A stretch of DNA of 64,000 bases, taken from positions 62,001-126,000 of the forward strand of contig NZ_JQKJ01000013.1 of the NCBI RefSeq assembly GCF_000745975.1, in the 5' to 3' direction. This stretch comes from Desulfobacter vibrioformis DSM 8776. Its GTDB lineage: Bacteria > Desulfobacterota > Desulfobacteria > Desulfobacterales > Desulfobacteraceae. Position 1 is the first letter of the stretch. Each line of letters opens with the position of its first letter. The translations under genes were made by a program, and so were the position numbers. Below, piece after piece: positions 27,594 through 30,000 of the stretch. Below the pieces are notes generated by a model, which saw nothing but the letters and a program-made list of their open reading frames with translations, was not told the origin of the DNA and did no database searches.

Positions 27594-27815
27594 TTATTCT
27601 TCTTTTCGAAATTCATTTTTATATTCCCCGCATACAGGACAAATCCAATCCTGGGGCAGGTCTTCAAAGGCAGTGCCGGGGGCAATGCCGTTGTCGGGAT
27701 CGCCCTTTGCCGGGTCATACACGTAGTCACAGGGCCGGCATGCGCCTGGGCTTCCATCACATCCAGGCGCATCGTCATACACGTAGCCATTGGGGCCGCA
27801 TACATATTTATCCAT
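27594..27815 (-). CDS. Possible separately translated rubredoxin (internal start in the SulP fusion)
   Basis: Small electron carrier with one iron held by four cysteines. ATG 27815 is preceded on the minus strand by AAAGGAGAAAAAT, a near-ideal ribosome binding site that is out of place inside a continuous ORF. The product would be 73 residues. CRPC and CPVC supply the ligands, flanking the hallmark [12 protein letters not shown]. Before them, [15 protein letters not shown] looks like a degenerate partial copy of the first knuckle. The gene probably began as a free-standing rubredoxin downstream of sulP whose stop codon was lost. Whether fusion, free protein or both are made is open. Confidence 0.55.
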
Positions 27816-29612
27816 ATTTTTCTCCTTTAATTCTCTCAGGTTGTGGGGTGCCGGGCATTCGCTAAAAATGCGCGTTTGGCAGGTGTGGCATATCCTTGGG
27901 TCCAGTCCTTTGTATATGATACTGATGGCCTGGTTTTCCCGGTCAAAAAGATGGGCCTTCCCGATTTTTTCCATAAATCCGCCGTGGATTAAAAAATGCT
28001 CCACATCCCGGTTGATCCTGCAAAGATAGAGGCGTTTGCCCAACTGTTGTCTGCGCTGGGCCTCCTGGACCAGCACCATGGCACCGGAGACATCAATGAA
28101 GTTGATGCCGTATCCCACAATCAGCAGGTGTTTGGGATTGTGTTCATCTATCTCTTCCAGGGCCTGGGCAACATGGTTGGCAGCCCCGAAAAAAAGCGAG
28201 CCATGAATCCGGACCATTGTGAGCTGGGGGCAGGGGGCACTGTTGCTCTGCCGGGCATTGATCAAGGTTCTGCGGTCGTCCAGGGGGTCCGGCATCAGCG
28301 GGGTGACATGGGGATGGGAGGTCCGTGTCAGGTAGATGGCCATGGAGAGAAGGACACCTGCATAGATGGCAAACTCAATGGCAAAAAACAGGGTTCCGGC
28401 AAAGGTGGCCAAAAGAACCATGGTATCCGGCCGGCTGCTTTTAAGGATCTCTTTGATATGATGCACATCAATGAGTTTGAAGGCCACAAAAAAAATTACA
28501 CCACCCATGGCTGGCAAAGGCAAAAAAGCTGTCAGAGGCGCCACCAGCAAAACAATAATGGCCAGGAACAGGGCGGAAAAAATGGAGGCCAGAGGAGAGG
28601 CGGCACCGGCATCATAATTCACCCCGGACCGGGTAAAGGAGCCGGAGCTTGCATACCCTGAAAAAAAACTTCCTGCAATGTTTGACAGCCCCTGCCCGAT
28701 AAACTCCTGGTTGCCGTTGATGTGCTGGCCCGATTTAACGGCAATGGACCTTACAATAGATAACGCCTCAATCAGGCCCAGGAAGGCCACGGCCAGGGCG
28801 CCGGGAGCCATGAGCCTCAATGTATCCAGGGTGAAATCCGGGGCTGAGACCGGGGGGAGCTGACCGCTCAGCTCGCCTAAGAATCTGACGCCATGGGCCT
28901 GGCCGTTTAGAACGATGCTGAACAGGGAGCCGGCAACCAGGGCAAAAAGCAGTGCCGGCCACCGGGGTTTCCAGGCCTTGATGACAATGGCACAGCCAAG
29001 GGCAACAAGCGCAATCCACAATTCATAATAGTTGATCTGACCTGTTGATTTTAGCAGAAACGCCCACGAGGTTAAAAACGAAGATCCGCTGGGCACAGGC
29101 ACCCCCAGGGCATGTTTGAGCTGGGAGGTGGCAATGAGCAATGCGGCCCCTGCTGAAAATCCCACAATAACCGAGTGGGAGACAAAGTTGATCAAAGTGC
29201 CCAGGCGGACCAGGCCAAATCCAAGCTGGAAAAGGCCGGCCATAAAGGTCAGGGTCAAAGCCAGGCGGATGTAATCTGCGGATCCGGGTTCAGCCAGAGG
29301 GCTCAATGTGGAGAAGACAATAATGGAGATCGCGGTGGTGGGACCGGAGACCAGATGCCTGGAGGAGCCAAACAGGGCCGCGATCACCGGCGGAACGATG
29401 GCGGCGTAGAGACCATACTGGGCCGGAAGCCCCGCAATCATGGCAAAGGAGACCCCTTGGGGTAATACAATAAAGGCTCCGGTGAGCCCTGCCAGCACAT
29501 CTGCGCGCAACGACGCCTTATTAAGCTGGCCCAGCCATGCCAGAAAGGGAAAAAGTTGAATCCCGGCGGGTACCGGGCGAACAGGCGCGGCTTTTCTGAA
29601 AACAGTGCTCAT
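27594..29612 (-). CDS. SulP-family anion transporter with STAS domain fused to a C-terminal rubredoxin
   Basis: 672 residues. Residues 1-420 form the SulP membrane domain ([20 protein letters not shown], then [19 protein letters not shown]), residues about 455-570 a STAS domain ([23 protein letters not shown]). A cysteine patch [12 protein letters not shown] near 580 resembles the end of many bacterial SulP proteins. The frame then continues without a stop into a rubredoxin-like module (600-672) with CRPCDYVYD and [10 protein letters not shown] iron ligands. SulP proteins import sulfate or other anions, or bicarbonate; which one is unknown. An internal ATG at 27815 with a strong AAAGGAG could make the rubredoxin alone. 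Divergent from lysS. Confidence 0.9.
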
Positions 29613-30000
29613 ACTTAAGATATCGTCTATCGGCTTGTTATGTTTCTGACATTAATTTTTCAATTATGTGCAGATGAAACGGTACCGGCTTGGATCATAT
29701 AAGTCAAGTCCGGCTTTCCCGTGCCGAACGGTTATCCCGGAATCTTGGCCCACCACGATTTCGACTTATATCAGGCATGCTAATCAAGGAGCATTCTGAA
29801 TTTTTTTTCGCTATAATCAGATTTTTTTCATGCACTTGCATTGTTGGGTCCTGCGCCGTCATTGACAAGGCAATACAAAAACGCTATTTTACCATGTTTT
29901 ATGCACGGATTTACCGTGCCTTAAAGTGTTAAATCAAACCGAAACGGCCATTTTTATTAATAAATTCGGATCTTAAATATAAACGAAAGCAGCTATTTTT
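29613..30000. other. Divergent 388-base intergenic region between sulP and lysS
   Basis: No credible ORF. It contains a 75-base segment bounded by the perfect inverted repeat ATATAAGTC (29697-29705) and GACTTATAT (29763-29771), the lysS promoter (29862-29890), and a small hairpin GCACGG-ATTTA-CCGTGC (29903-29919) close to the expected transcript start. No convincing sulP promoter was found. Confidence 0.6.
29862..29890 (+). promoter_or_regulatory. Promoter of the lysS-lol-bam-lpx operon
   Basis: TTGACA (29862-29867), 17 bases, TATTTT (29885-29890). The transcript would begin near 29897, six bases before a 6-base-pair hairpin, leaving a leader of about 100 bases before lysS. Confidence 0.65.

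Follow-up and report, generated by a model that had tools for sequence, protein, structure and literature searches.

The described systems closest to this locus are the SulP anion transporters (PF00916 plus PF01740; TIGR00815) and the rubredoxins (PF00301; NF045768), together with two kinds of frame in which one of these domains is joined to something else. Within the SulP subfamily considered here, a cysteine pattern, C-x2-C-x3-[IV]-F-x2-C, closes the transporter in 41 of 45 loci (a set in which the locus described here is counted and L004/L077 form a duplicate pair); the four loci that lack it (L033, L038, L039 and L082) are only 33-45% identical. At 11 of the 45 loci (L017, L019, L020, L022, L024, L027, L029, L030, L031, L032 and L037) the frame runs 203-215 residues beyond this tail, and in all three that were tested the C-terminal part is a cobalamin adenosyltransferase (Cob_adeno_trans, PF01923). 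A transporter-adenosyltransferase fusion thus recurs within the subfamily (e.g., L017, L020, L032); no paper describing it was found among the titles and abstract openings covered by our literature search. Rubredoxin also occurs inside long frames, in fusions of the rubredoxin-oxidoreductase type (e.g., L116, L119; the oxidoreductase label comes from reading the sequence rather than from a domain search).

The locus described here lies in a 64,000-nucleotide stretch of DNA from Desulfobacter vibrioformis DSM 8776 (the window), flanked by lysS and by a gene for a PilS-like histidine kinase. It has the full SulP domain set and the same cysteine tail, but differs from the SulP family in that its frame reads 86 residues past the tail, into a rubredoxin. 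It also differs from the SulP-adenosyltransferase frames, with which it shares subfamily, tail and a further C-terminal domain, in that those recur and the rubredoxin case is confined to a single genome. Its features are as follows.

27594..29612, minus strand: the whole open frame, SulP read through into rubredoxin (672 aa)
28404..29510, minus strand: Sulfate_transp domain (PF00916), residues 35-403, from a Pfam search
27927..28226, minus strand: STAS domain (PF01740), residues 463-562, from a Pfam search
27855..27890, minus strand: C-terminal cysteine tail, residues 575-586, a pattern common to the SulP subfamily
27849..27850, minus strand: site of a 2-base gap when aligned with the SulP genes of five relatives (L075-L079)
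27836..27838, minus strand: TGA, out of frame, aligned with the stop codon region of the SulP relatives (alignment, blastn)
27816..27835, minus strand: rbx2 leader retained from the stand-alone form, with the ribosome binding site AAAGGAG at 27828-27822 (alignment, blastn)
27594..27815, minus strand: rbx2, a 73-aa rubredoxin from its native ATG (open reading frame and relatives)
29613..29723, minus strand: SulP upstream region, homologous with G005, G003 and G008; probable promoter

The original prediction described one frame passing from STAS through a cysteine patch into rubredoxin without a stop, and on this point translation and domain search agree: the 672 codons contain no internal stop, and Pfam places Sulfate_transp (E 1.2e-96), STAS (E 2e-11) and Rubredoxin (residues 625-668, E 5e-20) within them. 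Judged by its domains, the first part is a member of the SulP family with a predicted role in anion transport: Sulfate_transp (324.3 bits) and STAS (44 bits) both exceed their curated cut-offs, and TIGR00815 scores 392.6 bits, above its cut-off of 380.45. The patch, which had been taken for three added cysteines, is the usual tail of the subfamily, and we discard the idea that it is new. Among the 19 genomes of the genus (its own included), seven others have an orthologue of this SulP, at 72-89% identity; a 35% match in G010 (L082) is a paralogue and was left out of the count. Every one of the seven orthologues stops on its own codon, after 589, 592 (five of them) or 601 residues. In G009, where a search at E 1e-100 found no full-length SulP, there is a 50-residue SulP remnant of 70% identity (L106, 7260-7409).

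The second part, which we call rubredoxin-2 (rbx2), is an open frame of its own, of 74-112 aa, in at least 13 of the 18 other genomes of the genus; an in-frame stop lies upstream of its start in all 13 of these and in L040 (‘Desulfobacter sp.’), whose rubredoxin is identical, letter for letter, to that of G012. The free 73-aa form scores above the cut-offs of both PF00301 (79.4 bits) and NF045768 (92.6 bits); when scored as part of the fused frame it reaches 83.4 bits with NF045768, below the cut-off of 90. Rbx2 has the CPVC motif and a core typical of the rubredoxin fold, and is set apart from other rubredoxins by some 20 extra residues in its first cysteine knuckle, which resemble a repeat of the stretch that follows. 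This long form was found only in the window’s own genus among the matches listed (L045-L057 and the window itself); all 14 long forms have C6, C19, C29, C59 and C62, but only four of the 14 have C26 and with it the CRPC motif (26-29) seen in the window, so that of the two CxxC knuckles expected to supply the four iron ligands of a rubredoxin only CPVC is of the usual kind throughout. The rubredoxin of the relatives starts at the same ATG as that at 27815, and AAAGGAG precedes this codon; the ribosome binding site and internal start of the original prediction are therefore both present, though separated by six bases and not seven. By comparison with the relatives, we read the internal ribosome binding site as rbx2’s own. 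Because this start and ribosome binding site are those of the stand-alone gene in relatives, it is very likely that free rubredoxin is made from the internal ATG. The proposal that one gene yields two products is thus very plausible for the free rubredoxin; for an evolved transporter with a redox tail it found no support.

Instructive detail comes from the junction. Aligned with the 3' ends of the SulP genes at L075-L079, the window has a 2-base gap between 27850 and 27849, about five codons before the SulP stop; beyond the gap it matches these relatives again, through to their stop codon, which corresponds to the TGA at 27838-27836. It is this gap that puts the TGA out of frame. The original prediction had named a stop hidden near 27820 by a sequencing error as evidence against itself, and this surviving TGA comes close to it. 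In blastn, the best SulP matches span 27835/27838 to 29723 and rbx2 homology spans 27594 to 27834, so that the two blocks meet at about 27835. Taken together, the homology blocks and the realigned stop describe two complete genes, SulP and rbx2, that have come to lie in frame with each other; the linker of the fused frame is the SulP 3' end in a new frame followed by the rbx2 leader. One blastn match, in G016, extends to 27813, and the next gene in G016 has a similar ribosome binding site (GGAGAAAAACATG); we can only speculate that this likeness offered microhomology for the join. An upstream extension of the G006 match into the junction was judged to be chance: it is interrupted by a TAG, and in blastn the likeness to G006 goes no further than 27826. 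Programmed +1 slippage ahead of the TGA is an idea that nothing in the data supports.

We consider it highly probable that the locus comprises two neighbouring genes, the first with a run-through frame, rather than an evolved fusion. The run-through would have arisen from either a recent indel or an assembly error. If the 2-base difference were an error of sequencing or assembly, the real SulP would stop at the TGA at 27838-27836 and rbx2 would be an ordinary gene 20 nt downstream. We regard this version as a real possibility but the less likely one: the stop codon and its surroundings show no decay after the gap and the other orthologues found are two separate genes, as an error would predict, but read errors more commonly take forms other than the loss of 2 bases, and 13 other genes of the window show no frameshift. 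When these genes were compared with proteins of G009 and G016 (24 comparisons), each comparison gave a single unbroken match, a few of them leaving gene ends uncovered, and so an assembly riddled with indels is unsupported. The indel may therefore well be real and the fused protein made.

Both halves are kept by selection: dN/dS is 0.08-0.13 for SulP and 0.09-0.20 for rbx2 (five relatives each), values that were measured against unfused relatives and so mostly reflect the time before any fusion. These low values, the open frame, the strong internal start and the occurrence of extra C-terminal domains elsewhere in the subfamily (the 11 loci above, adenosyltransferase in the three tested) are all consistent with a selected, redox-tailed transporter, in which the rubredoxin tail would exchange electrons with the SulP cysteine tail and gate anion uptake while free rubredoxin is also produced. 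We nevertheless think this very improbable, since the SulP stop persists out of frame, the linker is made of a reframed 3' end plus the rbx2 leader, and the fused frame is known from one genome among the matches listed in the sampled genomes.

This last point rests on searches with a query composed of the STAS tail, the linker and the rubredoxin. In two overlapping samples, one of 395 genomes of its phylum and one of 389 genomes of its order, the window’s genome was the only one with a listed match spanning SulP and rubredoxin in one long frame; among the matches listed for 398 genomes from G779’s phylum, none spans the two parts with the frame unbroken. Several other matches reach the tail region: that in G709 (query 55-145) lies in a short frame of 110 aa, those in G006, G153, G069 and G704 contain stops, and that in G865 (query 3-105) crosses two stops. 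Ten long rubredoxin frames of 505-933 aa from the sample of G779’s phylum (listed frames of about 480-490 aa were left out) gave no SulP match; in this respect the oxidoreductase-type fusions are unlike the frame described here. A SulP-rubredoxin fusion in more than one genome was thus not encountered among the matches listed in the sampled genomes, and on that basis we reject a conserved fusion. Nor is such a fusion reported in the literature searched (titles, abstract openings and one article searched by term); in that article, PMC5840216, the terms rubredoxin, fused and fusion do not occur. The comparison with relatives that the original prediction called for consequently goes against it: none of those examined has the fusion, and SulP (seven of seven) and rbx2 (at least 13 of 18 genomes) are separate genes. 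A redox-controlled transporter as an evolved design is not supported, in view of these separate orthologues, of the fused frame being seen in one genome only and of the SulP stop that survives out of frame. No relative examined has the fusion, which is therefore probably an accident of this one locus rather than a novel type of transporter.

The usual position of rbx2 is informative. Rbx1 and rbx2 are near each other in 10 of the 14 genomes that have rbx2. The order in G009 is cydA-cydB-rbx1-rbx2; G005 and G017 resemble it (their cyd genes being recognised by sequence likeness only), and in G002 another gene precedes rbx1-rbx2. The window’s own genome has cytochrome bd genes (identified by Pfam) and rbx1, with no rbx2 behind them; one rubredoxin gene follows the cytochrome bd genes here and two follow in G009 (L107, 7450-10038, and L108, 6248-9167, respectively). 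Bearing in mind that G016 has about 780 unrelated bases between the kinase gene and lysS, where the window has SulP-rbx2, and that our genome’s cydAB-rbx1 lacks rbx2, we infer that the SulP-rbx2 pair was relocated in the window.

Rbx2 stands apart from rbx1 in four genomes (G000, G004, G006 and G013). Where it does so and SulP is also present, which is the case in two genomes, it adjoins SulP in both, on opposite sides: in the window it lies downstream, and in G013 directly upstream with an ATGA overlap (L090, 9143-11127), the SulP of G013 lacking the upstream region common to its relatives. Chance would rarely give adjacency in both, on the same strand each time, but these are two cases noticed afterwards, for which shared ancestry is possible. 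They raise the question of whether rubredoxin-2 and SulP, fused or not, work together and are co-expressed, perhaps under oxygen stress; the rubredoxin genes that follow cytochrome bd genes, in G009 among other genomes, would fit such a role. We find this partnership doubtful: at least five genomes with both genes (G003, G005, G008, G015 and G016) keep them apart, G004 and G006 (the latter a draft) have rbx2 without such a SulP, and rubredoxin was seen in the flanks (mostly up to 4 kb) of none of 36 SulP loci. A functional link between rbx2 and SulP is possible; its fullest form, in which the two are coupled in this genus (by an overlapping operon in one species, as a fused protein alongside free rubredoxin from the internal start in another), rubredoxin reduces the cysteine tail and transport activity follows oxygen exposure, we hold to be a remote conjecture.

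Returning to two neighbouring genes with a run-through first frame, we hypothesize that rbx2 left its usual place beside rbx1 and brought along no more than about 19 nt of its leader, ribosome binding site included; with so little of its own leader kept, it is probably now co-transcribed from the SulP promoter. The 2-base difference would then shift the SulP frame past the surviving TGA, and the shifted frame happens to be that of rbx2. Two products are expected: free rubredoxin-2, begun at its native ATG, and, provided the indel is genuine, SulP carrying a 12-residue linker and a rubredoxin tail. The scheme presumes that rbx2 moved in this direction, that a genuine indel occurred recently, and that selection has given the tail no role; the fused transporter is possible, probably without a selected function. 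Two facts count against this reading: the frame is open over the whole junction, and rbx2 adjoins SulP in G013 in the other order, which a pure accident does not predict.

The locus suggests how a small gene, moved behind another, together with a tiny indel before the first stop, may give rise to a plausible and probably accidental multidomain protein, and is in that sense a caution for the prediction of function from gene fusions. It is the proximity of rbx2 and SulP in two species that merits testing. If the fusion were both real and functional, it would represent a transporter equipped with an electron carrier of its own, and would offer a means of studying how redox state controls anion uptake in oxygen-exposed sulfate reducers.
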